From Eutreptiella sp. 'Long Island Sound 2002' (taxonomy: Eukaryota; Euglenozoa; Euglenophyceae; Eutreptiales; Eutreptiaceae), in assembly GCA_964036045.1 (NCBI GenBank), contig OZ038382.1:2936612-3000611 (forward strand): a stretch of 64,000 bases of DNA. The letters are read 5' to 3'. Position 1 is the first letter of the stretch; every line of letters starts with the position of its first letter. The translations under genes were made by a program, and so were the position numbers. The notes under the pieces were generated by a model. The model was not told the DNA's origin, did not search any database, and was given only the letters and a program-made list of their open reading frames with translations. This document shows, in pieces, positions 3,414 to 62,900 of this stretch.

Positions 3414-6400
3414 GAAGAGGAGGACTTGGTTTTCTGGATCCTCGTGTAAATCGGGGATCAGGTTTTTCGAGCGGTGCTTGATACCGGTGCAACACTTTCC
3501 ATAGTGGCCCGGCGCCTGCTTAAGACTTTCAAGAAAACTAAGACCGTGGCCATAAGAGTAGGGGATGGGCGTACCATCCATTCCTTGGGGGGGGTCGATG
3601 TGACTATATGTCTGGGCGACGAGACCGTGACCCAACACTGCAGAGTGTTGGACACTGACGCCTTTGACATCGTCATTGGCACCGACTTTCTACGAAGAAA
3701 CCCCCAGGTAAAAATGCTGTCCCTACAGCGTCCCTATTCTTTGCACTGCAACTTTGGCAGTGGGCTATTCTCCGTACCTTTGGAGCTGTCAGGACGAAAA
3801 GAGTCTGGGCTGCGCTACGCAGCCAAGACGAACTATCGTACTGAAAACTACCAACTGGCCCGTCACGTTCTTGAAAATGGACTGGCGGCCCTTCAGGTAA
3901 ACCTGGATGAGATCCAAATGGAATGGTTTGCAAGCCAACAACAGCACATCATGCAGTTGTACTGCTCGAAACAACTGAACAATGCTTTCCGTTTCTTCTG
4001 GAAAGCAATGGGCCTAGCGTATGCTAACCCTCCCTTCTCCCTACTCGCGAAGGTTCTAACCAAAATCGCTTATGAGGGAGGAAGGGTTGTTATGTGCACC
4101 CCTGACTGGGGTTGCTCTGGTGAACATGCTTACTGGCACCGTATGCTAGATCGAATGACCGTGGGAAGAGTGCAACTCCCCGACGGCCCCATCTATGTGC
4201 CTGAGGACTCAGACACAGCTATGCAGGCCCCTGAGTGGGCCAGTTTCCTGTCCATCGTCGATGGATCTCTCAATCCTGTACCCCTGTGTGACCTAGACCA
4301 GGTGCTACTGAAAGAGGTCATGGCCGAAAATCGTGGCCTGACCCTTTATGATCTCAAAAATCGATCTCCTGAGCACCTATCTGCCACACTTACAGCGTGT
4401 GAGTCTCCCGATGACTATCTGGAACCTGCAGCTGTAAAAGAGGATGCTGACGACCAACTGTCTGAGATCGCCAGCACTATTCCCTCTGTTGATCCCAGCT
4501 GTGTTGACCTAAAACATAGTGCTTTCCTAGCCCAGCTGTTGCTAGAGGAGGTAGATCTAGAGTCAACCTCTGAACCCGCTTCCCCTGTTGGGAAGCCAGT
4601 GCTACACATGCAGCCTGTGCACACAGGTGAACCCGTGGCCCGGAGTGCTGATGCTCTGGCGCGGCCTGCTGCTAATAACATGCCATTGTCTGAGCATGAC
4701 ACTCAAGAACTCCGGCGGCTGTTGTACCTGAAGGCCGAAGGTATTGAGCGCCAAGAGCGGCTGCAATACCTCAGACAGACCTGGAAATCCTCCATCTGGT
4801 CTGAGGAGGACGATGAGTCCTATACGCTGCCTGATCCTGCGATACCTCTAGTGTATTCTCTACACTATGGGCAGCAATGTCCCCCTGAGTGGGACGATGG
4901 TACTGTGCCTGCCGAAACTGCTGATCGGCAGAAAAAGAAAGAACATGGAAAAAGCAACCTCCATGCTGAGGAGGATTTCCTTCAGAAACTCGAGGGTCTT
5001 AACCTTGACCCCCGCCTGAAGAAACTGCTGATAACCTATGAGGAGGTGTTCGGCGCCTTGCCGCCTCCCCTTTCTTGTAAAAAACTGGTCCAGATGGACC
5101 TGAAATTGAAACCAGAATTTGAAAACACGCGAGTGAGGCGTCGTCCCTATCCCGCTCCACAGAAACAGGTCGAAGAAATCGAGCGCCAGATCCAAGAATG
5201 CATTGATGCTGGCCTCGTTGAAGAGTACAAACACGGGGACTATCCCCATCACTGCAGTCCCTGTTTCCTTGTTGCCAAACCCGGGTCGACTGCCCTACGT
5301 CTTGTTGTAGACTATGGTGAGGTCAACAAGAAAACCCAGAACCACTCAGGGAGTATTCCTAACATGGAAAACACCCTGGAGCGTATTGCCAAATGCAGGT
5401 ATAAGACCAAAATGGACAAACGCTCTGGTTTCTGGCAGGTGGACCTAACCGCCGCAGCTCAGGAGCTGTTGGCCTTTATAACCCCTAAGGGTCGTGTCTT
5501 CAAGTGGAAGGTTATGCCTTTTGGGGTGGCTAATGCCCCAGCGCTCTTCCAGGAGCTTATGAACAAAATTTTGTACATACTGAGGCGCAGGCCTCTAGTA
5601 CAAGAGTTGATTTCTCGGGGTGCAGAAATGGAGGGTCACATCAACGACGTGAGTTTGGGTACTAATACCAAAGAGGACCACGTCCTTCTCCTCCGTGAAT
5701 TTTTCATTGTCTGTCAAGAAAACCATCTCCGAATCAAACTCGAAAAATGTGAGTTTCTCAAAGAGGAGATGGAGTATTTGGGTTTCGACGTGGGGTATGG
5801 CTGGTGGAAACCAGCCGCGTCTAAGATGCAGCCCCTACAGGACATGCAGATTCGCGATGACCCTAAGAAGGGTCTACACGATGTGAGGAGTTTTGTGGGC
5901 GCCTGTAATTTCTATCGGCGTCACATCCACAATTTTACTTACTCCTCTGCACCCCTCACTGACCTGATCAAGAAAACTACTCCCTGGAGGTGGACCCCCA
6001 GAGAGGAAGAGTGTTTCCAGGAGTTGAAGAAGAAGATTGCCTCCTCCAACTGCCTGGGAGTGCCCCGCCCTGAGGGCGAGATAGTCCTGATCACTGATGC
6101 CAGTGATGTAGGGGGGGGTGGTACGATCTACCAATGGCAGGAGCTTAACCCCGCTGTACTAACCCACTGCCATTATCGTACTACTGGACTGAACCGTGAT
6201 GGTTCGTTGAAACATGACTATCCTACCAGTGAGTGGCGACTGGTACCACTAGGACACTGGAATTGGAAATGGAACCAAGGGCGTTCCAACTACAGCACCT
6301 ATGACCAGGAACTCCTGGCCGGTATGTTGGTGCTATCGTCGCAATCCCGACTCCTGGGATCTAACCCTATTGTCTCGCTATGTGACCAGGAGCCTGTGAA

Positions 6401-8204
6401 GTCTTTTCAGAAGGGCCCACCACCAGAAAAAGCAAAGCTAAAACGGTGGTGGACTTACCTGAGCCAGTTCAGGCTGACAGTGCATCATATCCCCGGGATT
6501 AAGAATGAACTGTCTGACTATATATCGCGCAACAACTTCGATGCGCTTATTGGTGAGAGCTCTGAGGCGCTCGCCCAAGAGGCTTTCCAGCGTATGGATG
6601 TCCAGCTTCACCTGTCCATGCGCACTGCTGGAATCCTACAGGGTTGGAGTCTAACCAACTATCAGTCAGAGTATGAAGAAATTCTCCAAGCCCTCAGCAC
6701 TGGTCTCGAACCCCGTGTCATTGACGGGCACCAGTGATATAAAAACAATCAGTACCTCTTCTACGAGGACCGAATTGTTGTGCCTGAGGCACGACTGGAT
6801 GGGTGCCTACAGTGGTCCCATCTCAGTTCTGGTCACACTGGCGCTAATCGCTCAGTGGACTTCTTCCGTGAGTGTTACTACTCTAGTCTAACCCTGACTG
6901 AACTGAGGTCGCGTATGCAGACCATTGTGGATGCTTGTGGCTGTCATGCCAGCAAGCAGAGCGACAGTAGGGATAGGGGTCTGATCTCCAGCTTACCCAT
7001 ACCCTATTGTGCTAACTCTCTTCTCTACGTGGATTTCATCCACGGCCTACCACGCTTTGGCGGCTATGATAGTTGCCTCGTGGTCACCTGTGGTCCATCT
7101 CGCTTCACCCGTGTGTTCCCTTGCAATAAGAAAATCACAGGTGAGCAGACTGTGAAAATGTTGGTCGAACAATGGTTCGAACCCTATGGAGCACCTAAGC
7201 AGGTGCACTCTGATGAAGATGTACGCATCCGCAGTGACACTGGGTGGTACAAAGGAGTGCTAAATGCCCTCAACGTGGAGGTAACCACAGGTGTGCCCTA
7301 TACCCACACGTCTAACCCTCTCTGTGAGAGACAGAACCGTGTGGTGGAGCAAAACTTAAGAATCGTGATGAAACAGGAGCGCACCAAGGACTGGGTACGC
7401 CTAGTGCCCTGGGCAGTGCTGTCCATGAACTCCCAGCGGAGCTCTTCTACGGGTTTCACCCCCCACGAACTGTTCCATGGAGGACGACCTGCTTGGTTCT
7501 TCAAAACCCCCTTTCCTGAGGACTTCAAGAGCCCTGTGGGAGATTGGCTGGAACACAAGCAGTCTCTGGCTAACCAGGCTGGTACTAACCTGAGGCACAT
7601 TCGTGACCGTGAACAGAGCCGACAGAACCGCCTCCGGCGACCTGCCAGCTTCAAGGTTGGTGACCTTGTTTTGGTACACCATTCACGCCTACCCTCCTGG
7701 CCACGTAACTGCCTACAGGACCCTTACTTTCGACCCTATTGTATCATCAGGATAGATGGATCCAGGATCCATGTCAGGTGCAGTCCACGTCTAGGTGGTG
7801 AACTGCTGTGTGCACCCAAGCACTCCAGGCACTATCACTCCCCTGACGACTTGTCTTGGGATGAGTGGCGCCTCAGCGACAGTGAGATTGAACGTATAGA
7901 CCTAGAGAGCGCTGCCAGTCCAGAGGAGGCAGACAAACTCGAAGAGATGACTGCCGATGAGATGGCAGTCGTTGGTTACTACGTGGTTGCAGGTATTGCT
8001 CGCCACGAGTATAAACAGGGCTGGAAATTTCTTACCCTGTGGGATGGCTATGGGTTGTCTGAGGCGACCTGGGAACCTATGTCAGCCTTCATACAACCAG
8101 ATGGGAGTATCAACCCCATCTTCCGCACTTACCTCGTTGAGAACAACGAGGGGCAGCTCCTAACCCGTGCTGAGACTATGTCCCAGCGTAAGAAGCGAAA
8201 CTAA
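3402..8204 (+). pseudogene. pol: Element B Pol polyprotein (protease, MT-like, RT, RNase H, integrase, chromodomain), inactivated
   Basis: One reading frame encodes, in order: aspartic protease (VLDTGATLSIVARR, from about 3474, with IVIGTDFLRR later); the methyltransferase-like domain (3900-4206); an acidic linker; RT (about 5080-5790, KMDKRSGFWQVD, MPFGVANAPALFQE); RNase H (LITDASDVGGGG, YDQELLAGML, SLCDQEPV); integrase with DX35E catalytic core (VDF, SDEDVR, NPLCERQ); and a chromodomain near 7960-8120 (YYVVAGIARHEYKQ...LTLWDGYGLSEATWEP). Damage: in-frame TAA at 3447-3449, in-frame TGA at 6735-6737, and RT box HIND at 5637-5648 where C and D have HIDD. The integrase zinc module also lacks one Cys compared with C. 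The copy is probably dead although young. Confidence 0.92.
3900..4206 (+). other. Methyltransferase-like domain in element B Pol
   Basis: Between protease and RT lies a block of about 100 residues: EWFASQQQHIMQLYC, then GLAYANPPFSLLAKVLTKI, then GRVVMCTPDWG, then LPDGPIYVP. NPPF (4026-4037) is motif IV of N6-adenine methyltransferases. The surrounding order, an [E/D]-x-F-A-S start, NPPFS, then V-x-x-x-x-P-D-W after a helix, resembles phage Dam-type enzymes and the MT domain of DIRS retroelements. No glycine-rich SAM-binding motif I is evident. Homologous blocks occur in C, D and, degenerate, F. Enzymatic activity is unproven. Confidence 0.7.
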
Positions 8205-10908: not shown

Positions 10909-10918
10909 CAGGGGGGAG
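10909..10918 (+). other. Element B polypurine tract
   Basis: AGGGGGGAG directly precedes and overlaps the start of the 3' LTR, the position of the plus-strand primer. Element C has AGGGGGGAG at the same place. Confidence 0.8.
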
Positions 10919-11625
10919 TAAGAAAAAGTCACTGCCATGTCTTTCTTGGAGGGCTTGATCCAGGCCAAGCCCCCCTTAAAACCCTTTTGTTGATGCTAAG
11001 ACAAACTTAAGTGTTTTTCTCTCTCTTTTGTTGCCTAAAGTACACTTTCTCAAAGTAACTAGGGTTGTGACCCTAGCCCCCCATGAAGTTCACCCCTACC
11101 ACTCAACTGAGCGGAGGTACCTTCCTTCATGGAGGATATACCGAAATAAAACAGGCATTTCATGCTTTAGGCCTTGCAGGTTAAGCCTAGTGGTCTCCCA
11201 CCCCAAGACCCCTATACTCAATTGTTTCTACCACTTGTTGTGGTCCTACTTTGTAACTGTTTCTGAATTCAGTTGCTTGGCCAAGTCATTTTCTGTGTGG
11301 TCCTGACATCTGTGCCCCACATTCCTAACCAGCACCATTTCACCCAAAAGAGTGCACATGAAGTGCCTAATGCAACCTCTGAGGCAAGAGTCAGACCAAT
11401 TTTCATATAAAATCTTTTGTATTATCCATTTGTGATTGAATCTATGTGTATAAACCTGCTTTGTCTATCTGCAGCCCTTCTGTGTTACACTGGATTCCAA
11501 AACCAATCATTGATTCGATCCACATCCTGTTCTTGCTCTACTTGCTGCTTTGGTTTGGGTTTTCAACTACAAAACCTGCAGGAATACATCAAAATATCTA
11601 GGGCATAATTCAAGGACATCTTTCT
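10917..11625 (+). repeat. Element B 3' LTR (709 bp)
   Basis: Same length as the 5' LTR and differing at three positions. It begins AGTAAG and ends TTTCT, followed by target duplication CACGG at 11626-11630. Confidence 0.94.
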
Positions 11626-11630
11626 CACGG

Positions 11631-14600
11631 TACCCCTGACCGGGACAATTTGGAGAGGAACGAAAAACTTAGTCGTCTCTGCATAGAGGACCATGAGCGT
11701 CCGCTAGGGAGTTGTTTGAAATTTGGGCACACTACAAGCTCTCCCTGAAGCCCGAAAAGTGCAAAATGTTCGTTACTCGCGTTAAATTTTGTGGACACAT
11801 ACTCACACCCGGGGGTAGTCACAGGGACCCTGAAAAGGTAGCCGCCATTGAACGGTGGCGGTGGGAGGACATTACCACTCCCACCCACCTTAAGGGATTC
11901 CTCGGGTTTACACAGTGGTATAGCGTGTACATACATGACTACGCGCGCATGGCCGCCCCCCTGCAAATAGCCTTGCAAGGTATGTGCCTCACAAAGGCCC
12001 AGAAAAAGGCCCAAAAATACCAGCGGCAAACTGATTTGCTGCCTGGTACTGGTACCCGTCAAAGGGCCAATTTTTCCAAAATGAGCCAGGAAGAACTGGT
12101 ACAACATTACAAACTCCAGGGGAAGATTTACTGGACCCCCGAAACGAAGAAGGCGTTTGAGGAGCTGAAACAACGCTTCCAAAAGGAGGTGATACTCCAA
12201 TTTCCTGATCTCAGCAGGGACTGGTGGATCACCGTTGATTCCAGTACCTTCGCGTTTGGGGGTACACTGGAGCAGGAGGATGCTAACGGCAACCTCCGCC
12301 CAGTGGTGTTTTTTTCGAAAAGGTTACAGGGCACCAGGACCAAACGGCCTGACGGGTCCTACCACAAAACGGGCCAGTTGAACTGGCACATTTCGGATCA
12401 GGAAATGTACCGGATTGTCGCCACCCTGTACAAGTTTAGAAGCTGGTTGCAAACGGGGGTAAAAATCAAATGCCGCACGGACCACAAAAGTTTGGAGTCC
12501 TGGGTCAAAGAGGACTTTGACCGCATGGGTGGTCCAGTGGGTAGGCGGTCCCGTTGGCACCAGTTTTTGGCAAGGTTCCCCCTGGAAGTTATCTACATCA
12601 AGGGGGAAGACAACGGGGCAGCAGATGCGTTGTCTAGGTGGGCATACCCTGCTTACCTGGCCAACCCCGACACCAACCAGCATGGGAGCGATGCCGACTA
12701 AGCGGGTTGGGATGCATCGGAGCGGGAAACTGCGCAGTGGGTCAACGCAGCACTGGCACGGTCGGCCCCTACGGTCAACCCCGAGCCCCACCATACCCCC
12801 TTACCACCTCGCACATGGAACACCCCGGATGGAGAACGGTTGAAACACCTCGACCTTAGTACCGACCAAGTACGGGTCCACGGGGTGGAAGTGAACTGCA
12901 CATTGCCAATCACGGGTCAAAGCCTGGCAGGAGCAGTTCGTCAGTGGCATGCGGCCTTACGGCCCGTTAGTCATAGTGACGGAACCTCAGAGTTCTTTAA
13001 GTACAGGGAGCTCACGGAACAGGCCGAACGGGCCCGCAGGCAGCAGGCATTCGTCAATGCATTGCCTGCGGGACCCGGACGTGCTACGGTGCGCCAGCTA
13101 GCAAACACCATGTCCGGTGACGTAGTCAGTGTGCGCCATGATTCGTGCAAGTACGCACGCAATGCCCCGGATACACAAGGGTTGCATTGGAGGTCCAAGT
13201 GACGCCAGACTAGGGCGTATATGGACGCACAATGCTGGTACCAGGGCGCGGCCGCCTTGATGCGCCACACCCTTCCTGCCGACTGTTGGGACAGTCCCAA
13301 TACGGCTATGCTGCGCGCGCTTACCGCTTACTATGAGAATGCACATCCACAAAGTGAGCCCCCCACGCACGTACAGTGCTACCAGGCCATGCAGGCGTGG
13401 TGTAGAGCAGGGCGCCAAAAGAAGGCAGACATGCCTGATAAGGGCACCGTCATGATGCCCCCTCCGACTGAGTTCCTGTTTCACAACTGGGCCCCGCACT
13501 ACGAGACTGACCCTGCCCTGAAAGGGGAGTATGCGGCCGCTAGGACTGGCGTGGCGGAGCACCGACGCGCGGACCGGCATGTTAACGGCCGAGGGCAACT
13601 CCTTGAGCACCATCACGTGATAGTGCCCAAAGCGGTGGCCTCTAAGGTCATACAAGCGGTGCACTCTTGCAGTCACCCAGGGGTGGACAAGACGCTGGAA
13701 CTCCTACACAGACGCTACAAATTCCACGGATACACCCCTACGCGGCTCCGGGAGCTCCTGGAGAATGTAATCCAGCGCTGCGACACGTGTCAGACGTGTA
13801 AGCCGCGATGTGGTCGGCACCCTGAGACCCGCCACTACTACCCCATCCCCAAATATCCGTTTGCCTCAGTGGCAATGGACATAGTCCATCTCTCTACGTG
13901 CGAGGTGCGCAAAGGTTACACTGTGGACTGTTGCTTCGTCATAGTTGACCGAGCGACTGGCTATGTTATAGCCATACCAGCTACCCTCATAGGCCTCGAC
14001 GCCCGCAAATTGGCGGAACTTTTTTTGGAGAAGTGCGTGTTTTTTACAGGCGTTCCCAATAAAATCCTGCGGGATAACGCCAAATATTTCAATAACAAGT
14101 TTGTGACCACTCTTTGCAATTTGGCTGGCATCTCCACCCACGAGTCCGTGATCTACGATCACAAGACCAATCGGAGGGCCGAAAGGGCGGTAAAAAGCGT
14201 CGTTGAAACCCTTAGGGTATACCTGCAAGAGACCAACACACCCACCAGTCAATGGTACTGGAAATTGCCTATGGCACTGTGGGGTCTCAATGACCTTCCG
14301 GGTGCCATAGCCCCGTACTCTCCCCACCGTCTCTTGTTCGGGAGGGATCCAATTGGATTCGGGGACATGCCTCCCATTGTGCAGGAAAACGGGTGCGAAG
14401 ACGCCCTTGATTTTTTCTTGCGTCTCGGGCGTGAGCGTGAGGAGGTTCAGCAAAAGCTGACGGCCATCCATGAAAAACACGAGAAAGAATTTCGAAAGAC
14501 GCACCCTGAAGAACTGTGGGAAGTGTGTGACCGCGTCTCGTTCCGCAATTTGCCCAAAAGCGAGGACCGCGATTTTGACAAGCTGGCCCGCATTTGGTAG

Positions 14601-25900: not shown

Positions 25901-27302
25901 CAACCCCCTCAACCTCGACCGCTTCTTGGAGAACCTGGACGATTGGGGGGTGACCGTCACTGAGGACATGGATCCCGCAGATGCGGAGAAATATGTCTTC
26001 AGACGGTTCAGGTACCGCCTGCCGGAAGTGCTCCAAGAGCTATACTTCGTGGCGACCAAGGAGGGGAAAATCAAGACCCCCAAGGAAGCCAAGAAGTGGC
26101 TCAACGAGCAGGAGCGGGTGGACGCTCCGCAGGTGGCTGCCAAGCGGTGGAAGTCCATCAAGCTTCAGCATGATAGACGGGAGATCCGTCTACGGGACTG
26201 GCGAGACTTCCGGGGGCAATACACCCTCTTCCGCCGCAACGTGGAGGATTGGAACGAGGGTGACGAGCAGGCTCGCCTGCTCTCCATGCTGCCGGAAGCA
26301 TGGATCAAAAGGGTCACCAAGGAGGAAGCCAAGAGGGCCAAGTCCAACCACACGGTCAAGATGATGCTCCCCAAAGAGTATCATACGAACGTGGTGGCTT
26401 GAACGAAGAAGAACGTGGCACGGGATGTCAAACGGCACTCCCTGCGGAACGCTCTCCTCATCACCGTCTCGGGCGAATGCGAGAAGACCGCGATGTGGCG
26501 CCTTGACGAGTGTGACGTGAGCGGCCAGACCATTCGTCTGCAGGCCATCCCGGCGTGAATGAGCTGCGACGAGATCCTGGAGTGGGTTGGAGAGGAGGTG
26601 CTCAAGGAGTACCGGAACCTCCACCACACCCGCGGGTTGAGGCCCGGCGACCGTGACGTCAACTACGTTGGCGAGGGACCTGGCGGGGAAGCTGCCATGG
26701 ACCCAGCGGGAGCCGCTGGCGATGAAGCTCTCGTCGACGATGACGACGACGATGAGCCCGCCGACATGGCCGTTTGTGCCTTCGTGGCCAACAACCTGAA
26801 CGCGGGGAGCAACCGGGGAAGCTGGAAGCCCCTGCAGCCGGGTTGGAAGAAGAAGGAGAAGAGGGACCCTCGTCGCATTGGCAGCCCTCCGCTGTCCTTT
26901 GGGAAGTTCATACGAGCTCACCCTCAGGGCTGTTTCGTGTGTTATGGGAGGAAGCAAGGCTTCAACCATGACCACCGGACATGCCCCATCCACCAGGCCG
27001 ACACGGAGGCCTACAAGAAGGCGCACGGGTCAAAGAAGCGTGCACCCGCGGGTATCCGGGAGGCCAAAGTGGAGGTGGACAAGGACGAGCTCTCCAAGCT
27101 GATGTCGGTGGGGACCGAGTTGGTCAAGGAGATCCAGGAGATCAAGAGGAACTGGGTCCCCAGGCAGGACAACAAGAACAAGGAGAACAATGAGAACGAC
27201 AAGGACAAGGACAAGAAGCCTAGGAATAGGAGAAAGAAGAAGGGTGTCAACGAGGTTGACGCGGAGGAGAATACCCCTACTTCCACAACCGACGCCCCCT
27301 AG
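22965..27302 (+). pseudogene. gag: Element F Gag, broken by stops and frameshifts
   Basis: ATG at 22965 opens a gag-like region of about 1,440 codons. Most is in one frame, with a stop at 23433-23435, shifts near 24540, 24600-24680 and 25370, and TGA at 26400-26402 and 26556-26558. Parts in order: an N-terminal domain (DRLRAVEEWLRAEGYAYRFR); a long Ala/Glu coiled coil (about 23950-24300); a Pro/Gly linker (24720-24920); a second coiled coil (25000-25180); a capsid-like helical segment (AVWEDLKDIKPPMYDGNPLN to KRVTKEEAKRAKSN, 25860-26340); and a zinc knuckle-like motif CFVC...NHDHRTC (26937-26990). The C-terminal 130 residues are charged. TAG CGG ends gag at 27300-27302. Confidence 0.7.
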
Positions 27303-38744: not shown

Positions 38745-39328
38745 AGCCCTTGGGATCCGCCATGCGGGGGACGTGCCTGCGGTTGCACTCAGGTGCAACC
38801 AGATGACCTGCAGGGAGTGGCACTACCCTGCCAAGACGAGCATTAAGTTATATGCAGGTCTGGTTTCTGGTTTTCAGCCCAGTCTGGATGTTTATAGGGG
38901 TCCCTGTGGGTAACGGGGATCCACCAGACGGGAGCAGAAACCAGCAGACCTGCAGGGTGTTACTTTTTGTGTTTGTCAGCAGGATTGATCCATGTTGGGC
39001 TCGAGCCGTCGCAACCGGTCTATGCCACTGTTGTACATAGGAATCAGTGCAATGGCCGATTCTGAGTGTCTATAGGGGTATGTCAGCCTATGATGGCCAG
39101 ACCCCCAGAAAATCTGCAGCTGTGCTGATGTGGGGCCTGAGCCGTCGCAATCGGCCTGTGTCCAGTTTCATCCACTTTCTTTCTCAGTCCGTGAATGGAT
39201 GGAAATGCCCTTTAGGGGTGGACCGCGACCGGGGCAGTTCGTCGTCAAGATAGGTCACCAGTTTCCGCATCAGAACCTGCCCCCCCCTTTAAGGTTAAGT
39301 GCCGCAGGCGAAAACCCAGGTTGGTATG
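38745..39328 (+). other. Element E internal noncoding DNA left of element C
   Basis: No gene seen. It ends in GTATG (39324-39328), the left target duplication of element C. Confidence 0.6.
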
Positions 39329-42726: not shown

Positions 42727-42738
42727 CGGGGACGCTCT
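42724..42738 (+). promoter_or_regulatory. Element C gag-pol stop codon with putative readthrough context
   Basis: TGA CGG GGA CGC TCT. A purine- and G-rich context follows, as in B and D but with TGA. The frame continues GGTQDLVFWVR into protease with no ATG, and DLVFW matches element B. Confidence 0.65.
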
Positions 42739-45700
42739 GGTGGCACCCAAGACCTGGTGTTTTGGGTACGTATCCGACTAGGGGGACGTGAATACCTGGG
42801 GGTACTGGATACTGGAGCCACAATATCGATAGTGGCCAAGAAAATTTTACCTTGTGGGAGCCTGAAGAACACCATGACCACCGCCGCTATACGGATGGGG
42901 GATGGACATGTGGTGCACAGCTGCGGGGACTGCGAAGTGGAGGTACCTATGGGCTCCAGGACTATCGCCCATCGGTTCTATGTGATGGACACTGATGCCT
43001 TCGACTTTGTACTGGGTACTGACTTCTTCGTGCAGCACTCCCAGATACAATCCCTGACGCTGCAAGCGCCCTACCTCCTGTACGTGGACCACGGCAGTGG
43101 CAGAGAGTCTGTGCCACTGGAGCAGTCGGAACATACCTCGAGTTACCTGAGACTATCGAAGGAGGAGCCCTCGAACATGATGGCGGCCTCCAAAACTGAG
43201 GACTATCAACTAATGGGGGAAGTCCTAGACCAAGGTCTGAAGGAGTTGGGTTACTCTCGAGAAGACCTAAGTGTGGAACTGTTCGCCAGCGACAAGCAGC
43301 ATGTACTGGACCTATACTGCAGCAAGGGGAAGAACTGCAGCTACAAATTTTACTGGCCCTCTTTCGGGATGGCCTACGGGAACCCCAGATTCAGTGAACT
43401 GGGGAAGGTGCTGACCAAGGTGGCCTTGGAACGTTCCCGTATGGTCCTGTGTTCCCCCGATTGGGGAGCCCATGGGGGCAACGAGTACTGGCGAACCCTC
43501 CTTGACAAGCTGACTATCAGCTCTGTGCGGTTACCTGATGAGGCCATCTACGTGCCTCTGGGACGCAAGACGCCCATTGGGAAGCCCGGATGGGGGAGTA
43601 TGCTCAGCGTGGTGGACGGAAGTCTTACCACCATCTCCTGGGAAGACCTCGACCCTACTCTGGTCCAGGCTATCCAACGAGAAAGCGATGGACTCGCCTT
43701 GGGTGACTTGAAGGATCGCCTACGACCTCAAGATGCTGTTGAAACTACACCCGGAGGAGATGAGTACGTCGTGACTGACACCAACGCCCCCAACTCTCCC
43801 TGTCATGTACCTGTCCCTGATGGAGTCTCTGAGTGTGGACTATCTGAGCTACCTAGCTCTATCCACTCAGACGACGAAACTGAGCACGACGCCTTCTTCG
43901 TGCAGACTGCGGTGGAAGAAGTGGAGAACGCCGAGTACGTCGCCCCACTAAAACCCCTACTCTCCATGAGGGTGGAAGACCCCGTGGATGAAGAGCTGGA
44001 CCCTCGATCCAGGCTCAGGGAGTATGTGGATTCCAAGAGGAAGTTGGTGGCGAAAAAGCTATGCTACGCGAAGCCTACCCGCAGCTCATGGCCACTGAAG
44101 CAAGGACGGATGGGAGACCTATCCCAACTGAAGGAGGACCTCGAACAGAAGATCACCACCTGGCAAAGGGAGGTAGATCTCAAGCTCATGAAGAGCGTAT
44201 GGGGTGCCCATGTGAGGACCCCAGAGGAGGACGACCTCTCGGAGGAATGTGTATGTGAACCCCCTAAAGCGTGCCTATGTTGCCATCGTCCACCGGAGAT
44301 GGTTGAGCAAGACCTTCTGTATGCCTACCAAGGGCTGAAGGATGCTACCGCGGGCGAAGAGTCGGTGGAGGACCACCTCCCGATGTCTATTCAAGGGGCA
44401 AGCAACTTACACTCCGACGAGGACATGGAGGACAAGATCAAGGTACTGGACCCGCGGGTACAAAAGCTGATAAGGACCTATCTGGAGGTGTTCGGAGAAC
44501 TACCCCCTCCAGCCTCATGCGACAAGCTGGTACAGATGGACCTCAAGCTGAAACCCGAGTTCGTGGGTCACAAGATCCGGAGGAGACCCTATCCAGCTCC
44601 TAAAGAGCAGGCCGACGAGATTGAGCGACAGATACAAGAATGTATCGACGCTGGCCTAGTCCTGGAGTACAAGGATGGGGACTACCCCCTACACTGCAGC
44701 CCCTGTTTCCTGGTGGCTAAACCTGGGTCTACAGCCAAACGGCTGGTAGTGGACTATGAAGAGCTGAACAAGAAGACGCTGAACCACTCAGGGTCCATTC
44801 CCAATATGGAGTCTACCCTGGAGAAGATAGCCTCCTGTCGCTACAAGACCAAGATGGACAAGCGAAGTGGATTCTGGCAAGTGGACCTGACGCCCAACGC
44901 GCAGGAACTACTGGCCTTCATCACCCCTCAGGGGAGGGTATTCAAGTGGAAGGTCATGCCATTCGGCGTGGCTAACGCCCCCGCTCTGTTCCAGGAGCTG
45001 ATGAACAAGATCTTGTCCATCCTACGAAGGAGACCTAAGGTGCAGGAGCTCATATCCCGTGGGGCCCAGATGGAGGCTCACATCGACGATGTATGCCTCG
45101 GGACCAATACCCAGGAGGATCACCTAATCCTCTTGGGTGAGTTCTTTGCGGTCTGCCAGGAGAACCACACACGACTCAAGCTGGAGAAGTGTGAGTTCAT
45201 GCAGGAGACCATGCAGTACCTGGGGTTTGACGTTGGCTATGGGTGGTGGACCCCAGCGGCCTCTAAGGCCAAACCCCTGATGGATGCCAAGGTACGACAC
45301 GAAGACCCCAAGAAAGGACTTCATGATGTACGCAGTTTCATTGGGGCGTGCAACTTCTATCGCCGCCACATCAAGAACTTCACCTACACCAGCGCGGTAC
45401 TGACTGACTTGATCAAGAAGAGTACTACTTGGCGCTGGGGCCCACAAGAGCAACAAGCGTTTGACGAGCTCAAAGACAAGGTAGCCAACGCTAAGTGCTT
45501 GGGCGTGCCTAGGGCACAAGGGGAGATTATCCTGGTGACCGACGCCAGCAATGTGGGCGGTGGTGGAACGTTGTTCCAATGGCAAGCACTAGAGAATGAG
45601 GAGTTCGACTCGGCCATTTCCCAATGGGGGACGGAAGGTCTCAACCGAGATGGAACCCTCAAGCACAGCTACCCTGACGACAAGTGGGTCCTAGTACCTC

Positions 45701-47655
45701 TGGGCCACTGGAACTGGAAGTGGAACCAGGCCAGGGGGAACTACTCCACCTATGAGCAGGAACTGCTCGCGGGTATGCTGGTGCTATCCTCACAAGCACG
45801 ACTGTTGGGGAGTAACCCTGTGGTCTGGCTATGCGACCAAGAACCGGTCCGCAGTTTCCAGAAGGGCCCCCCACCTGAGAAGGCCAAGCTACGTCGCTGG
45901 TGGACCTACCTCAGTCAACTACGGCTGACGGTACACCATATCCAGGGAGTGAAGAACGAGTGTGCCGACTACATCAGCCGCAACAACTTCGACGCCCTGA
46001 TTGGTGCCCGGTCTGAAGCGCTGGCTAAGGAAGCGTTCAGCCGTATGGACGTACACCTGGACCTGAACATGACCATGATACGCCCCCTGGATGGACTCCA
46101 ACAATCGGAGTACCTACAGGAGTTTGGGGATATCTACCGGCGCCTGGAGAAACGCCTTGAACCCCTCCTGGTCAACCAAGACCAGTGGAAGCGGGACAAG
46201 AGCTACCTCTGGCACGAGGACCGCATCGTGGTGCCTAGTGACCGAGTCCCAGCGCTGCTGAAGTGGACCCATGAGTCCAGTGGTCATGTGGGTGCTGACC
46301 GTACCCTGAGGCTGTTCAAGCAGTGGTTCCAGACTACGTGGACTGACGACCAGCTGCGGAAGACGCTCCTGCCTATCGTGGACAAGTGCCCGTGCAGGTC
46401 CTGTAAACCAGGGGATATCAGGGACAGAGGTCTCTACTCGACCCTGCCCATCCCTCACTGTGCTAACAGTGTTCTATACGTGGACTACACGGAGATGCCG
46501 AAGTTCGGGGGCTATGACTTCGCCCTCGTGGTAACCTGTGGGTTGACCAGGTTTACCAGGGTGTTCCCATGTACCAAGCACATTACCGGAGAGGAGACTA
46601 TCAAGATACTCCTGGAGGAGTGGTTTTGTGTCTATGGGGCGCCCAAGGAGATCAACTCCGATGAGGACGTACGAGTACGCTCAGATACTGGCTGGTACAA
46701 GAGGGTCCTGAGGTCCCTCAATGTCCAGGTGTCTACGGGGATTCCCTACTCTCACACGGGCAACCCCCTATGTGAGCGACAGATTCGTGTCCTGAAGGAG
46801 AACGTCAGGATATGGTGCAAAACTGAACGCACCAGAGACTGGGTGAGACTACTCCCCGTCATATCCTTGATGATGAACTCCCAAGAGAGTTCAGCTACTG
46901 GCTACTCGCCACATGAGCTATTCATGGGGCGCCCGGCATGGTTTCTACATGCCCCCTATCCAGAGGACACCCATTCTTCTGTGGGTGAATGGGTCCAAGA
47001 GCAACAAGCGAAGGTGGACAAGGCCAAGGCTATGCTCCAGAGAGTGAGGGAGCGTCAGTGGAACAAGAAGAACAAGCACCGTGTACCGGCCACCTACCAA
47101 GAAGGGGACTGGGTGCTGGTGCACCACAGTCGACTACCCGCCTGGCCACGCTCTACCAGCGATGACCCATACTTCGGGCCGTACAAGATCCTATCTGTGG
47201 ATGGGCACCGTATCACCGTGCGGTGTTCTCCCCGTCTAGGGGGGACCCTGGTGTGCGCCGCTCAACACCTGAAGCGCTACCATGATCCTGAAGACCTCTG
47301 TGGGGAGGAGTGGGAGCTGAACGACGAGGAAATCGCCGCTCTGGACCTACAAGGGGCTGCCAGCCCTATGGAAGTTGAAGGTGAACTCCCCGACATGAAC
47401 GCCGAGGAGATGGCTAAGGAGGGTTTCTACCTGGTGAAGTCTGTCCTACGCCACCGCTATCGCCAGGGTTGGCGCTTCCTCACCCTCTGGGAAGGGTTTG
47501 GAGTCGAAGAGGCCACCTAGGAGCCCTTCTCTGCATTTGTTCTACCTGAGGGACGCCTAAACTCAGTTCTGGTTGACTACTTGTCCCAGAACAACCTTGG
47601 TGAGTTGTTGAGGCTCGCTGAGACGCTTGCCTCCAAGAATAAAGCTAGGGACTGA
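42727..47655 (+). pseudogene. pol: Element C Pol polyprotein, nearly intact, one nonsense codon in chromodomain
   Basis: The protein is about 1,640 codons. Protease: VLDTGATISIVAKK (near 42800) and VLGTDFFVQHS. Methyltransferase-like block: 43261-43563. An acidic linker runs to about 44450. RT (44510-45210): KPGSTAKRLVVDYEELN, KMDKRSGFWQVDL, HIDD at 45079-45090. RNase H: LVTDASNVGGGG, YEQELLAGML, LCDQEP. Integrase: SSGHVGADRT and CPCRSC zinc ligands; core VDY, SDEDVRVRS, CERQ, with 35 residues between the second Asp of SDED and the Glu. Chromodomain: YLVKSVLRHRYRQ...LWEGFG. TAG at 47518-47520 stands where B encodes the conserved Trp of the chromodomain; the frame continues to TGA at 47653-47655. 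All upstream domains look functional. Confidence 0.94.
43261..43563 (+). other. Methyltransferase-like domain in element C Pol
   Basis: VELFASDKQHVLDLYCS, YKFYWPSFGMAYGNPRFSEL, GKVLTKVALERSRMVLCSPD, LPDEAIYVPLG. Motif IV reads NPRF (43381-43392) rather than NPPF. The rest aligns without large gaps to B. With B and D this shows the domain kept under constraint while the catalytic Pro varies. Confidence 0.7.
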
Positions 47656-49927
47656 ACCTTACCCTTACCTGCCAAAGCGTATGTGTGAGTGTGCTAGTCC
47701 TAAGGTCCTGAGAGCAAGCCGCAGAAGTGGTGTCCTAATTATACCCAAGTCTGCGCCCTTGCTGAACCTGGAGGGTTGGCTTATTGATGCCACGGGGTAC
47801 GCCCCGGGTCTCCCCTCCCCTATGCGCCCATATTCTGTGCTGGCGCAAAACCTTGGGGGAATACCCAGAGTGTTAATCCAGGTATTGTTTTCCCTACCTA
47901 CCTGTCTACTACAGGGAGGGGTGGCCAAAAGCTATGAAGGCATGCAAAACGCCTGTTTGCTATGTGGCCAAAAACACTAACCTAACCCACTGTCACAGCC
48001 CACCAACCCAGCTAAAATTGCAGGAAAAGGGTGGGACAGTGACACGCCCCCTACAGGTCCTACACACCCTACAGTGGCACCATCCTGGTGGGCGAGCGCT
48101 GGACAACTGGCTCTAGCCCGCAGGCAGGACTACCACTCCTACACGCACACTCTACTTGGCGTTGCGAAGAGGAAGTTCTCGAGGGTCCTAGCGACCCACC
48201 TGTGAAATGACAAGAGAACACAGCGCTGCTAAGCAACTGTGGCCTCACAGGGGACGCCACAACGCGTTTCCCCTTCAAGGGCTTGGAGGGAAGGAGTGCT
48301 CTCGTGTGCAAGGCGCAGATGTCGATGAAGTCGGACTCCCTGCTCTGCCACAGGCGGAGCGGAGTTACTTGTTTGTGTGATCTGCGCCCCTGTTTAGCAG
48401 GGCATAAAAAAGTGCTGCTGCACCACTCACCCTACCTGCCCACCTGTAAAACAAAGGCAAATGAAAGGGCGTTTGCGGCGGAGGAACCAAGGCACACTCC
48501 AGGTATTATACCCTTCTCAGTGTGCCCTATAATACGCTGTCCGCAAACACGCTGCATGGAGCAGCTACCCTTATCAAGCAAGCAAGCGTTAAGGGACTCC
48601 TCAGGTTCTCTTAAAGAACGTACCGAGGAGCCCCTGGGTAGCCTAAACAAGGTTTACCGTGCGCACTTCGCGTGGCCTACCCTTTAATGCGTGTGTGCAT
48701 GCACGACTATGCACAATCACGTTGGGCAAACCTGCCCATCTCCACAACAATCTTGACTCCACCAGGGGGTGGCCCCGCCTGGGCGTACCTACCTTACCTA
48801 CCGCTGGTAAGTGAAGCAAGGAGAGAAAACAAAAGGGGCGCACGCGAAGAACGTTGCTATGCACTTGTGTGTATGACTAATCACCCTGATCTGACCGCTA
48901 ATCATCTGCAATCTTTGTAATCAATCCCTCTACCGCGCCCTATCGTGGTTATCGTTGTTAACGCTGCTACACGACTCGTTCACGGAGACACGAGACGAGC
49001 AATGTGTATGCGGCATGCAAGACGAGCATACCTGTAGTTTATACCTGATTCATTGAAGTCTTTTCAATTGATTTTCGAATTCTTGAATTTTTGAAGCTTC
49101 TATTAGTGTGGGTGGAATCTGTATGTTTGTTTATTAATGTGTGTCTCGTCATTTTCAAGACTACGTGATACATACGTTTATAATTCCATTATTTTTCCAT
49201 TTTCCGGCGCTTCGCTAGGAGCCGCTCCTGCGCGCCGCCATTTTATGCGTATGAATTTCTGGACTTAAAAAATCCAGAGATGACTATAATTTCTATAAAA
49301 ATGTGCCTTTGATGCACAATTGGATTCTACTCAGGTGTGTCGTTTCAGAAAAATTCTACGCCGTCATTTGACGGATTTTGGTGTCGTCGCTTCGTTTTTG
49401 CGTGGATTCGTCCATAATTCTCCCATTCCTGCCTCTGCAGATACCCACGCGCAGCCTCGCTGAGTAGGCCGTGTTCGGGCCAAAACGCAGGTGCCTGGAG
49501 AGACTGAGCAGAACCAGGACCCCACCAAGGGGCAAATTAATTTCTTTTCGACTCCCTACGCCCTAAGACAGGTCACAGGTCGCCAGCAGGTTTACGAGAA
49601 CCCATGCGAGTGTGTATAATGTGTCTTGCGTTTGGGTTGTGTCGACGCTGCGTCTTGGAGGAAGGGATGCATATGCACATGTTTGGCATGCTCCCAATCT
49701 AACCCAACCAAGCCACAGGAGCCCCGGCAGCGCCAAGAGCGCTGAGTCTTCTGTAGGAAACTGTACAATCAGAGCAGCAAAAGGACGCCAGCCATGGTGA
49801 GCGCCCATTTTTCAGTGTGAGGGAGACTGTAGGTATTTTAAAGTAGATGTGGAAACCAAGGAAAGGCCAAGAAAAATTCCCTTTTTCCTAAAATGCGACA
49901 GTGGTGGCCACCACAGCACAAGGGGGG
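47656..49927 (+). other. Element C long 3' noncoding region
   Basis: About 2.3 kb without a credible gene. Roughly 47818-48770 is homologous to 8825-9790 of element B. The rest is AT-rich around 49040-49400 and unrelated to B. It ends in the polypurine tract AGGGGGG (49921-49927). Confidence 0.75.
48469..48550 (+). ncRNA. Conserved pseudoknot-like structure in element C 3' region
   Basis: Outer stem GTTTGCGG (48471-48478) with CCGCAAAC (48541-48548). Inner interleaved stems: GGCACACT (48491-48498) with AGTGTGCC (48519-48526), and GTATTATA (48503-48510) with TATAATAC (48528-48535). One inner stem is longer than in B. The homologue is 9457-9538. Confidence 0.55.
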
Positions 49928-50725
49928 AGTAAGAAAAAGTGCTTTTCCATTGCTTTGGGACATACCCTAGTTGTATTAGAGATGCACTGAGCATCCATGC
50001 ATTTTTATCTTAGTATTGGTCCAGCCAAAAGTGGTGAGAACACATTTTGACCTATGGAACCAAACACCCAATCAGGATATTGAGTGGACCCCTTAATCCC
50101 CTTTCAATCAGAAGTAAAACATCTTTTCCTGAGTTGACTGAGCACTGACATACCTAAGGTAGAGCCTATGAATTTATCTATGTTTTTCCATGAATACTTA
50201 TCTGCCCTAGTGGTATGCACCATAGGGGGTTAGGCACCTCTTTTTGAGAGGTCCTGGGTTCAATTCCTGGTCAGCCTAACTAAGTAGGAAGATCCCATGT
50301 GACATGGCAGTGACCTCATCGCCACATACCATGCCACCTCAGCACATATGGGACCCAAAACAAAGAGTGCACATCTCCTAAGATGGCACTATGGAGAGAG
50401 AGTGATCCTGTGGCAGTTTTCTAACTCTTTTCCCAAAACATTTCAGCTATCGCTGTGAATATGCATTCATTTGTATCCTGAGTTGCAGTTTCTGTGAATA
50501 TCTAATCATCTTTCACTGTTTACACTGCAGCCCTTCATGCTTTGATCCTGAATTACCTTCTCCTTGCATACTATTGGCTTGGGCTATCCTGGATTGAGTT
50601 GGCTTTACTGTATTTCAACAAACAAAAGCTTTTCATCATCCAAAACCAGCAGCAGGACACCCTACAGCAACAACAAGCAGCAGGAGAAGCACAAACACAG
50701 TGCTGAAAACACTATAAACTTTTCT
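49928..50725 (+). repeat. Element C 3' LTR (798 bp)
   Basis: Same length as 39329-40126; two differences seen. It ends TTTTCT followed by the target duplication GTATG (50726-50730). Confidence 0.95.
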
Positions 50726-50730
50726 GTATG

Positions 50731-55014: not shown

Positions 55015-57021
55015 TGTTTGGTTTCCGTCATGCCCTGCGCCCCCCGGCCCCCCCTGTGGGGCCTGATCTCCGGTTATGGGGACACATACTCCTCTTTGTG
55101 CTGACCCCCGTCATCCCCTTGTGTAGGCTATTATAGGCCCACACTATGAGATTTGATAGGGGATATCATTAGCCTTCATCCCCCCTTAACCTTTCCTTTC
55201 ATTGTACTTTTGACTTGAGCCTGCAGGAGGGATATCATGGAACTCGGCCTGTTTTTCCGCCGCTTTCGTATCAGTCATTAGGGAATTCATTGCTCTGTTG
55301 ATACCTATGCGAATTTGCCTTAAATTTGCATAGGTACAGAAGTTAAATATTGGCAGCGGCCTGGTGGTGAACCGGCGTCGCGCCAATTCGCGGGCGAACT
55401 GCCAGTTGGGATCTGGCGACCCAAATCGCGAGACCATGAACTGGCCTTTACGGCAACTTCATCCTGTTGACCTGAATTAATTCTGACTGCATGGTTGTAA
55501 TAGTCAATACTTGGTTTATGATAGGGAATTAAAAGTTCAGGTCCCGGTGCCACTATTTTCAAAAACCCCTTAACGTCATGGTGCCCAGCCATTTAAAGTA
55601 TAGGGATAGCTTAGGCATCGTTGCCGGCACCTTACGGTGCCTTTTTCTTTTACCCCCCATTGTTAGATTAGGCATGGCATGCATATCTTATGCATTTCAT
55701 GTAGTCACTTCAACCTAACCGTAAATTGAGATTTTCCATCCATTTCTCTTGAGGAGAGATGCAATGGAATGGCATGACTCTCCTCTACATTGGTATGTTA
55801 TTTGTTTGTGTGAGTTGCAAGCCAGTTTGGAGATATGCCTTAATTATTAAGATTGAATTGAGTTTTGGTTGTGGTGAAGAGACCATGGTGAATCTCAAGC
55901 TCAAGTTGATTTCATTGATTCCAGGGTGAACCCAACATGGGTAATCATTTTGTTTTGCCTTCCCTTCCCTTTGCAACGTCGAGATATGGTCGTGGTGGGT
56001 CACCACACTCCATGGTGGGACCCACTTTCATGCATAAATAGTGCATTTTTGTTGTGTTCATGATGTCACTTTGTCGAGTTTGTGTGTCACGTCATTTTCG
56101 ACTTTTCACGTAATTTCTTTTTGGTAACGTAGCAACGTGTCTCTACTTTCATTATCACTCTGGTTCGAGTCCATTTGAGCCATTGGTGATTTTTGGCGTC
56201 AATTTTGGTTTCGACATTTTGAGCACTTTGTTTTCATGTGCTCAAAGTTCGCCACTATATCTCCAAGATATAGTGGCGACGGAAAAAAAGTAAGAGCTCA
56301 TTTTGTTCGTACTTGGTGAGTACAAACAATATATGTTCGAGTTTTGGTTGCGTTTCGATGCTTTCGACATCTTTTGGTTGGAAGTTTTAAACCTTTTTGA
56401 GCTCGTTTTGGCATAGTCATTTTATGCCAAAAATCACTCATTTTTGGCCTGTCATGGGCCTACATTTCGAGCTTGGATCTCCAAGCTCGTGTCGAGTTTG
56501 AGTCTAAGTGTTGTTTGTGCGTGTTGTGGCATGTGTCTTCTTTCCTTAATGCAACTTGTTCGGCCGTGATTCATTGTACATAGGGCCACACATAAATTTT
56601 AGTGATTGTGTCTTGCATTTCATTTTTTTCATGTGTTCACTTGTGGTGACCATGGAGATCCACTACTATAGAGTTTTCGGTCGAACTTTCGATCATTCGA
56701 GGTCTCCATGGTCCCTACTATTCATATATGGTCATTACAGGTTGTCGTCGATTTTTGTCTTTACGCTACAACCAATTTTCTATGTGCCATTTTGGTCAAT
56801 TTTTGCTTGTAGTAAATTTGGTCATGTGAACATTGCCCAAATTTACTCAGTTATGGGTTGACTTTTTGAACTCATATCTTCATGTACATGTTGAGTTCGA
56901 ACCCAAGTGTTGATCCCAAGGAAAGAGCATGCTTGCCAGTCCACGTGCATGCTTTTACTTGGTTATAACTCACTTTGGGCTTACCACACCATTGCAATCT
57001 CTAAAACTGTTTGGAGATTTC
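55015..57021 (+). repeat. Element E 3' LTR, interrupted by element D
   Basis: It matches 33917-35923 throughout, with scattered substitutions and a 1-nt indel near the start. The match stops at 57021/57022, in the middle of the longer 5' LTR, exactly where element D begins. Confidence 0.85.
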
Positions 57022-57562
57022 AGTGAAGTGGACCCACAATCCTAAGCACCACAGGTTAAAAAGGTTTTGACAGCCCGACACATTGATGTCATTTTACTGG
57101 CATGCATGTCATTTGCTGATGCATGAAGATCATGATTTGGATGGTCACTGATGCATGATGATCATGATTTGGATGGTCATTTATACTGATTTTGTATCCT
57201 TGCAACCCTGTGTCTCTAAGGCTATTGGAGTCGCTTTTACTACTATTTTACACAGTTTCGTGCTATGCGCCCCTCTTTGAGTGGGAGCCTTTGTTGGGCT
57301 ATTGGCGCTATTCATTCTTTTGCTCTTGGTAGGAAATACCCATGGTGGTCACATGTGCACAACACAAATAACAAGCAAAGGGCAATAGAGAAAGCAAATA
57401 AGCAAAGCGTGTAAAGTAAACGAAGTGAATGGAAAACTGCGAGTGTAAATAAGTCAGTGGTTTGACACATACTCTGTGTTTGTACAGCCTCAGTGTGATA
57501 CAATGAATGAGTCCAAGGTGCAGTGCTTTCTAAGGGGTGCTGGTTAGAGCCTAAATCTTAGT
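57022..57562 (+). repeat. Element D 5' LTR (about 541 bp, inferred)
   Basis: The left edge is the break in E's LTR and reads AGTGAAGTGG, starting AG like B and C. The right edge is set by the primer site. It contains two 32-bp tandem units at 57117-57148 and 57149-57180 (TGATGCATGAWGATCATGAT core). The 3' LTR is outside the window, so termini are not confirmed. Confidence 0.6.
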
Positions 57563-59893: not shown

Positions 59894-59905
59894 GGAGGCG
59901 GCTCT
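59891..59905 (+). promoter_or_regulatory. Element D gag-pol stop codon with putative readthrough context
   Basis: TAG GGA GGC GGC TCT, nearly the same as element B (TAG GGG GGC GGC TCC). Pol continues in frame to the protease IDTGATSSIM with no ATG. Confidence 0.65.
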
Positions 59906-62900
59906 TTGGGGAAGGGCTACCTGTTGCCAGTCGAAGTAACCGAAGCATCCGCGATTGAAAGTTTTATTGATACGGGGGCTACGAGCAGTATAATGGCGGC
60001 GAAACACGTACCTGAGGGAGAAATTGAGTACGCGCCGAGCGTAGGTATTCGTATTGGCGACGGGAGAATATGCCTGACCGAAGGGAAGTACAGAGGGACG
60101 GTGATTCTGGGGAGAAGGAGATTACCGATAAGTTTCTTAGTCCTCGAGAAGGACGCGTTCGACGCAGTGCTCGGTGAGGACTTCTTCGAGGAGAACCCGG
60201 AGATTCGTTACCTGGGCCTTCAGTCACCGAGACACCTCCTAGTACGGACAGACGACGGAGAGTGGGAGAAGGTGCACCTCGAAGAGACCGCGGAGATTGT
60301 CGAAGGAGTAAAGGTCTTTAGGGACATCAGCTTTGACCTGGACACGGAAGTTAAGGTCGAAGGGCTGCTGCGTTTGGAGAAAGAAATGCTACTAACCCTG
60401 GAGACCTACACCTTAGCGACAGAGATGAAGCTACACGCGTACGAGGAGTTGAACATCGAAGGTGATCCCTGCGGTGACGATTTTATCGAACTCTTCGCTA
60501 ACCACGTTAACGCAGACAGCGAACTCTACTGTTGGAGACAAGGCAACAGCGCCTGGTGGTACGATTGGCGAGACCTGGGGAGATGGAAGTACCTGTACGC
60601 CAACCCACCGTTCTCCCAAATGGAGAAAGTCTTGACGAAAGTCGCGTTGGAAGGTGCACGAGTAATCCTTGTCGTACCTGAAGAAGGGAAATGGATGAAG
60701 AAAGCGTGGAGAGAATTACTGACCAAGCTGACAATAACCCAAGTACGACTACCCGATGTTCCTGTGTACAAAGTTGACTACGGGGTGGAGCTACTGCCCG
60801 CTCCCAAGTGGCGAACGAATTTATGTCTTGTTGACGGATCGCTCAACCCGGTGGCGCGAGAGGACTTGAACCCCGAAGTTGTCGAGAAGATCACGAAGAA
60901 CAACTGAGGATGGGGAAGAAAGCACATGTTACAACACTTTCCTGACCTGAAGGAATCGCAACAAGACCGGAAACGCGAAGACATGAAGGTGACCATCAAA
61001 GAACTACCCAAAGGAAACCGAGAACTCCCGGCGGAAGAGAAAAGTGAACTCTCGGAAGAAGCGCACGACAGCGATGGGCTGTCGGAAGCTCCTAGTATAA
61101 GCACCATCGCACCTGTTACTGAAGGGAGCTACCCAACTTCGATGGAGTACGAGGACATGTTCAACGACGTTCTTTTGGCTTGTGAAAACGAAGAATTGTT
61201 GCTCCGACGAACCATCGAGGAGAACCTACAGCCGAAGAGCGAATGGCATGGATTTCAGTACGGGTTCGAAACAAAGAAGCGAAAGACGAATCTAGCTAAG
61301 CCGACAGAGTCGTGGCCCATGTCAAAGCAGGATTGAGAAGAAGTGAAGGCCCTACTCTGGACGCGCATCGATCAGATTCAGAAAGAAGAGTTGAAAGACC
61401 TCTGGAAGTCTAAGGTTTACTTGCCCGATCACGATGATGGAGCGACAGACGAGTACTCGGAGGTCTTGAACTACACCGATCTGTGTGACCTGTTAGAAGA
61501 GTACAGGGAGACTACGGACTACTATGCCGATGAGGAACTCAACACAGGTGGCGCGAAGAGATGCAAGAAGAACAAACGCCAGAGGAAGACAGAACGTACC
61601 AAAAGATGTGAACGTGCTTTTGGGTTGACTGAAGTCGGGATACCCGAAGAAGTGAAACCGGACGGTCTCCACAACCAAAAGAAGGATGAATTCGGGCGAA
61701 GCAACCTGCAAGCGAGCGAGGACTTCATGAGCAAAGTTAAAGAACACGACGAGCGCGTGTGGAACATCTTACACAAGTACCAAGAGGTGTTCGGACCATT
61801 GCCATCACCTGGAACCTGTAAAAAGCTGGTACAGCTTGACTTGGAGCTGAAAGAAGAGCACGCCAAAGATCGAATAAGGTCGAAGCCTTATCCGTGTTCC
61901 AAAGCTGACATGGACGAGATCATGCGGCAAGTTTTGGAGTGCGTGGAGGCAGGGCTGATCGAGGAATACAAGGAGGGAGACTACCCCAAGCATTGTTCCC
62001 CTTGTTTCCTAGTGGCGAAGCCAGGGTCTACGGCGAAGAGGTTAGTCGTGGACTACCAAAAGCTCAACCGCAAGATCAAGCAGCACAGTGGGTCCCTGCC
62101 GTTTATGGAGAACACGGTGGAAACCGCAGCGGACTGCAAGTTCAAGACGAAGATGGACAAGAGGTCAGGCTTCTGGCAAGTGGACCCGACGGAGCGCGCA
62201 AAGGACATGATGGCTTTCATCACTCCACAAGGCCGTATTTTCAAGTGGCGAGTGATGCCTTTTGGCATTAGCAACGCCCCAGCCTTGTTCCAGGAGATGA
62301 TGTCTCAAGTCCTGTGCCTCGTCAAGAAGAGACCAGCCGTTCAAGAGCTACTCACAAGAGGTGCCGTGTTGGAGGCGCACATTGACGACGTGCTGCTAGG
62401 GACCAACTCGGTCGAGGACCATTTGGTACTCTTGAGTGAGTTTTTCGAAGTCTGTCAAGAGCAACACTTGAGGATAAAGCTGGAGAAGTGCGAGTTCCTC
62501 CGGAGTGAAATGGAGTATCTGGGGTTTACGATTGGACCGGGATGGTGGAAGCCAACGGATGCAAAGTTGCGACCATTGCTCGACTTTGACCTGTCTGAAG
62601 TCAATGGAAAGGCCGAAGGTGTCAAGAAAATACGCCAGTTCGTGGGATCGTGTAACTTTTACCGAAGACACCTGAAGAACTTCACCTTCAGTACTGCACC
62701 CTTGACCGACCTCATCAAGAACGAGACCAAGTGGCAATGGACAGAGAAAGAGCAAGCAGCACTGGAGGAAATGAAAGGAAAGCTTAAGAACTGCCTGATC
62801 TTAGGCGTACCTCGGCCAGTCGGTGAGATGTTGCTGGTTACGGACGCGTCGGATGTTGGAGGCGGAGGTACACTCTTCCAATGGCAACGCCTGAACAGGG

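Follow-up and report, generated by a model that had tools for sequence, protein, structure and literature searches.

A phage-type Dam-like domain between protease and reverse transcriptase in Ty3/gypsy retrotransposons of Eutreptiella

A 64,000-nucleotide stretch of the genome of Eutreptiella sp. 'Long Island Sound 2002' (assembly GCA_964036045.1, contig OZ038382.1, positions 2,936,612 to 3,000,611 of the forward strand; hereafter the window) contains several Ty3/gypsy-type retrotransposons. Four of these, termed elements B, C, D and F, encode within Pol a block resembling Dam-type DNA-adenine methyltransferases (MT). All four blocks are in open translation where they had been predicted. The block limits given below are those of a six-frame scan of the window using a profile of ten lineages, the four blocks included; other stretches of the window matched this profile with E 4.4 or worse. 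The features of the four elements are as follows.

411–414 and 11626–11629, unstranded: 4-bp target-site duplication CACG of element B
415–1123, + strand: 5' long terminal repeat (LTR) of element B (self-BLAST, 710 bp, 2 mismatches to the 3' LTR)
1149–3401, + strand: Gag open reading frame (ORF) of element B, assigned by eye from position and a Cys/His-rich end
3450–6737, + strand: Pol ORF of element B, with protease, MT, reverse transcriptase (RT) and RNase H, terminating at a stop
3831–4292, + strand: block B, Dam-like MT domain, motif IV NPPF
5274–5789, + strand: RT of element B (PF00078, Pol residues 609–780)
6738–8204, + strand: integrase-like ORF of element B after the Pol stop, assigned by eye
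10916–11625, + strand: 3' LTR of element B
32480–32662, + strand: protease of element F (PF00077, E 0.003, under cut-off)
32927–33379, + strand: block F, Dam-like MT domain, HCPR instead of motif IV
39324–39327 and 50726–50729, unstranded: 4-bp target-site duplication GTAT of element C
39328–40126, + strand: 5' LTR of element C (800 bp, 2 mismatches to the 3' LTR)
42727–47520, + strand: Pol ORF of element C, 1597 residues, with protease, MT, RT, RNase H and integrase
43189–43647, + strand: block C, Dam-like MT domain, motif IV NPRF
49927–50725, + strand: 3' LTR of element C
59894–60907, + strand: ORF of element D with protease and MT
60395–60865, + strand: block D, Dam-like MT domain, motif IV NPPF
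61337–63466, + strand: ORF of element D with RT and RNase H

Elements B and C encode protease, block and RT, in that order, within a single ORF. In element D, protease and MT share one ORF and RT follows in a later one. The window copy of element F stops soon after the MT; in another F copy (L085), read by eye, a single frame spans protease, MT, RT and RNase H. The predicted place of the domain, between protease and RT, is thus borne out by window elements B, C and D, and the Ty3/gypsy setting is supported by profile, profile-profile and pairwise evidence. The order protease, RT, RNase H and integrase in the Pol of element C fits Ty3/gypsy, with RT and RNase H above the Pfam cut-offs and the protease (3e-4) and rve (4e-7) matches just under theirs. 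Direct LTRs together with a short target duplication, as expected of Ty3/gypsy, are present in elements B and C. Since their LTR pairs differ by only two mismatches each and are flanked by 4-bp duplications, B and C look like young insertions.

The blocks were compared pairwise by Smith-Waterman alignment with 2000 shuffles per pair, giving z-scores of 62 (B-C), 39 (B-D), 33 (C-D), 11 (B-F), 11 (C-F) and 6 (D-F); the D-F score was matched by 2 of 2000 shuffles and the remaining five by none. With the seven residues around NPPF masked, the z-scores were 61, 32, 30, 11, 12 and 6, respectively, and no shuffle equalled any of them. The blocks are therefore alike beyond the NPPF motif, as the original prediction had held, and a chance occurrence of the motif was rejected. 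Homology extends 16 to 29 residues past the limits first proposed, on both sides. The consensus proposed for all four blocks stands in part. YANPPFS is found in B and D but reads YGNPRFS in C and IHCPRWD in F; KVLTK is shared by B, C and D but not F (AVAKI); P-D-W is present in B and C but not in D or F; and LPD is present in B, C and D but is LPA in F. The assignment of NPPF to B and D, NPRF to C and HCPR to F was confirmed in the sequence.

When the isolated blocks were scanned against Pfam, NCBIfam and PHROGs, family matches were obtained only to methylase models, mainly PF05869 and TIGR01712, and all were weak and under curated cut-offs. PF05869 matched B (E 0.0043, 17.2 bits), D (0.0053, 16.9 bits) and F (0.00066, 19.8 bits), the cut-off being 28.1 bits. 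TIGR01712 matched all four (B 0.044, C 0.056, D 0.07 and F 0.0017), and phrog_111, annotated as a DNA-methyltransferase, matched B (0.22) and D (0.02) weakly. The PF05869 and TIGR01712 matches share one register, starting at profile positions 31–33.

Stronger matches were obtained from the window's own genome (2.28 Gb), to which all genome-wide searches refer. From 3,813 first-look PF05869 candidates, 150 were scored, of which 133 matched with E 0.01 or better (top score 45.6 bits). The best 30 (L009–L038) are A-type, an element family also present at the window (see below), in 29 cases by script and in the last by eye. These 30 and nine further loci picked by choice (L039–L044, L081–L083) were read. 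Dam, RT, RNase H and integrase lie in a single 1,774-residue frame in L039, whose Dam match (3.6e-10, 40.2 bits), like those of L040 (5.3e-9, 36.4 bits) and L041 (1.1e-6, 28.9 bits), exceeds the Pfam cut-off; the B-like L043 scores under it (24.8 bits). In L039, L040 and L041 the Dam domain is upstream of RT in a shared reading frame, and in L084 (sub-lineage D2) a protease-like stretch, MT and RT were identified by eye in one frame. From the window, a tblastn search with the L039 Pol recovered block D at 33% identity (2.9e-10) and block F at 26% (2e-6). The dinoflagellate spliced leader had 0 matches in this genome, by a search that skips very common words.

The L039 domain matched the phage T1 Dam by tblastn (5e-4), and the best phage match of the L041 domain had an E of 1e-5. 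Among the phage matches listed, 40 of 40 for L041 and 34 of 40 for L039 are annotated as methylases, the other six for L039 being hypothetical (two) or unannotated (four). It has been reported (PMC9289625) that an orchid gypsy element encodes an RNA N6-methyladenosine (m6A) demethylase. A domain upstream of RT in Pol might likewise be an RNA methyltransferase, marking the element's genomic RNA with m6A rather than its complementary DNA (cDNA). We regard this as very unlikely, given relatives annotated as DNA methylases and the absence of any RNA methylase family from the Pfam, NCBIfam and PHROGs scans of the blocks.

Profile-profile comparison by hhalign aligned the four window blocks with six phage Dams at a probability of 92.1 (E 6.1e-7, score 48.9), the best of 100 column shuffles scoring 21.3; single blocks scored 22.7 to 35.7 against the phage Dams. 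An alignment of 24 mostly long rows gave a weaker result (probability 33). When the B Pol was cut into eight 150-residue pieces, the piece containing the block scored 25.2 against Dam and the other seven 8.6–15.8. The block as part of a known RT or protease was rejected, since these other seven pieces do not match Dam. Among solved structures, none was convincingly related in sequence to the blocks or to the phage Dams, and searches of viral contigs revealed no relative of the four-block alignment. The predicted Dam-type resemblance is thus supported by profile, profile-profile and pairwise sequence evidence, as is descent of the block from a phage-type DNA-adenine methyltransferase (Dam, PF05869). 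That the block is instead an RT-linked domain, or that NPPF arose by chance, would accord with the sub-threshold scores of the window blocks; we consider this highly improbable in view of the sister Pols over the Pfam cut-off, the T1 Dam match, the hhalign result and the congruence between MT and RT described below.

In alignment, the phage T1-type Dams (PF05869, TIGR01712) share with the retroelement domains a motif I-like acidic stretch, a W before motif IV, NPP[YF], and then K, P and W. They differ in being free-standing phage genes that have TP upstream and end in a different C-terminal part, whereas the retroelement version is a Pol domain without TP. The MT of DIRS elements is described (PMC3783388, PMC3266345) as a Dam-like domain of unknown function following RNase H; DIRS1-like elements also have a PF05869-type domain in a retrotransposon Pol. 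DIRS elements have the order RT, RNase H and MT, with a tyrosine recombinase and no protease; here, in contrast, protease and MT precede RT, RNase H and integrase follow it, the LTRs are direct and the target duplications are 4 bp long. Identity with DIRS was rejected, the MT lying before RT and matches being present to protease and to rve/H2C2 integrase. No DIRS element was recognised by its Pol among the loci read from PF05869 matches, in which a tyrosine recombinase was not searched for.

Cytosine methylases are reported in long interspersed nuclear elements (LINEs) and DIRS elements of Symbiodinium and in a Klebsormidium gypsy element, KnitGypsy-Dnmt3 (PMC5890265). These too are methyltransferases captured by retrotransposons, once into a gypsy Pol, but they are cytosine-5 enzymes, which that paper describes as structurally unrelated to Dam. 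A cytosine DNA methyltransferase was excluded here, no PF00145 match being found in the Pols scanned. No report of a Dam between the protease and RT of a gypsy element was found in the openly accessible literature.

The history of the domain was examined across ten lineages or sub-lineages: A (L039), L040, L041, B, B2 (L042–L044), C, D, D2 (L084), E81 (L081, L082) and F. In a tree of their MT domains and six phage Dams, the ten retroelement domains group together with a support of 100/100. Distances in the MT are correlated with those in RT (r 0.848, 0 of 20,000 permutations), also with F left out (r 0.839, 2 of 20,000 permutations), making one old capture of Dam by a Ty3/gypsy ancestor likely on these comparisons. 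Several independent captures by separate gypsy lineages would account for the different placement of F by MT and RT, and for the identity of B and C being 83% in RT and 46% in MT (B and B2: 81% and 71%). This alternative is unlikely, since all domains are upstream of RT, distances are correlated and the retroelement domains form one group, albeit in a tree confined to these gypsy domains and a small phage sample. Discords between MT and RT would be explained by recombination between elements or by quicker change of the MT. The B and C Pols (3450–6737 and 42727–47520) resemble each other at about 72–90% between the linker end and the RT end and at only about 22–55% farther upstream, in 60-column windows; this pattern suggests that Pol halves were exchanged between lineages.

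The motif IV pattern of N6-adenine methylases is [DNS]PP[YFW]. Canonical NPP[FW] is present in six of the ten lineages (NPPF in B, B2, D, L040 and L041; NPPW in E81) and altered in four (NAPF in A, NPRF in C and D2, HCPR in F), the N being kept in nine of ten. The same altered motif, NPRF, occurs in two separate lineages, D2 and window C. At the level of loci, of the 30 top-scoring in D, 29 have NPPF and one was unread by script, and among A loci NAPF was present in 28 of 29 and NTPF in one. Apart from B and B2 (71%), the NPP[FW] lineages share 20–40% MT identity. The TP motif upstream of motif I, which we take to be possibly the methyl-donor motif X, is present in six of six phage Dams (five as W-x-TP).

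The original prediction that conservation of the fold serves binding more than catalysis accordingly fits four of the ten lineages, while six retain NPP[FW]. A rival reading is that catalysis was lost at or after capture and that in every lineage the Dam fold now serves solely as a scaffold or to bind nucleic acid within Pol. The absence of TP from the retroelement domains, the alteration of motif IV on what seem to be four distinct branches, two of which (C and D2) have NPRF, and the abundance of altered-motif families favour a pseudo-enzyme throughout. Such an explanation is possible, if rather doubtful, set against the survival of NPP[FW] in six lineages of mostly 20–40% identity and of the motif IV N in nine.

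Selection was assessed by comparing B with B2 (L043). dN was 0.176 in the MT, 0.31 in the protease, 0.334 in the linker, 0.134 in RNase H and 0.085 in RT, and dN/dS was 0.066, 0.172, 0.179, 0.103 and 0.037, respectively, with synonymous sites near saturation. By this measure the MT is under purifying selection in one NPPF pair, tighter than on protease or linker. A comparison of B with L044 was saturated in both MT and RT. In two recent B2 copies dN/dS was 0.55–0.75 in MT, linker and RT, like decaying copies, and between L081 and L082 it was 0.35, 0.43 and 0.34 in MT, linker and RT, the MT being no tighter than RT.

The families are numerous. B gave 21,075 first-look genome candidates, D gave 24,472 and F gave 20,073, counts that are loose and probably overlapping (150 scored for each query). 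ENA proteins clustered at 90% identity gave 6,186 members of C type, 5,370 of B type and 1,584 of L041 type, and F copies with frames of 1,658–1,673 residues were present.

These sequence comparisons demonstrate that the blocks are homologous, where they lie, that they were inherited together with RT and that purifying selection acts on the MT in one NPPF pair. Beyond this, we favour a mixed reading, to which we give about an even chance. A phage-type Dam would have been captured once by an ancestor of a group of Ty3/gypsy elements and passed on since then as a regular Pol domain between protease and RT, where it may act on nucleic acid of the element itself, inside the particle. In the NPP[FW] lineages (B, B2, D, L040, L041 and L081) the methyl-donor/adenine pocket would still be used, probably to mark or bind adenines of new cDNA. 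In the NAPF, NPRF and HCPR lineages (A, C, D2 and F) catalysis is probably gone, leaving a putative nucleic-acid-binding or structural module beside RT. The retention of NPP[FW] in six lineages, mostly 20–40% alike, argues for a used catalytic pocket, and its loss in four, together with the missing TP, argues for a binding role.

Several observations weigh against this reading. All window blocks score under the Pfam cut-off and C lacks any Pfam Dam match; no protease was recognised by Pfam in the L039, L040 and L041 Pols; RT places F with A, L040 and L041, but the MT places it with the B-D group (92/88); TP is absent from ten of ten retroelement domains in the 17–34 residues examined upstream (17 in E81); and altered-motif families are abundant (the C-type cluster and the long-frame F copies), which implies that methylation is not needed for spread.

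An apparently repeated shedding of the catalytic motif, yet retention of the domain in very abundant families, would point to a second, non-catalytic job. We tentatively propose, with somewhat less than even confidence, that a phage Dam became a core rather than accessory domain of Pol, between protease and RT, when a large Ty3/gypsy radiation began, that the motif was shed repeatedly (NPRF twice) and that the domain has a further role in reverse transcription or integration, separable from methylation by lineage comparison. Retrotransposon methylases are already known from DIRS and, as cytosine enzymes, from a few other elements. The present genome offers a gradation, from clear NPPF Dam relatives to abundant motif-less families, all upstream of RT, making catalytic and non-catalytic roles testable by comparison. 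The domain might also be a source of methylated adenines in a eukaryotic genome.

Element A represents a fifth MT-bearing gypsy family at the window. Element B is nested in its RT, with the CACG duplication.

3–419, + strand: start of the RT of element A, cut by element B (tblastn of the L039 Pol, 96%)
11620–14315, + strand: remaining RT, RNase H and integrase of element A (tblastn of the L039 Pol)
Contig 2935873–2936082, about 530–740 bases before the window start: A-type MT (PF05869 search of own genome)

A further repeat is associated with element D.

55018–57022, + strand: 2005-bp repeat left of element D (second copy at 33919–35923, 98.4%)

Judged from sequence, this repeat is probably the D-family LTR, the second copy being a solo LTR after element F. 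Additionally, a 723-bp duplication (97%; 26913–27635 and 31664–32386) brackets a very GC-rich stretch (about 72–81%) at 28000–31500, within element F.

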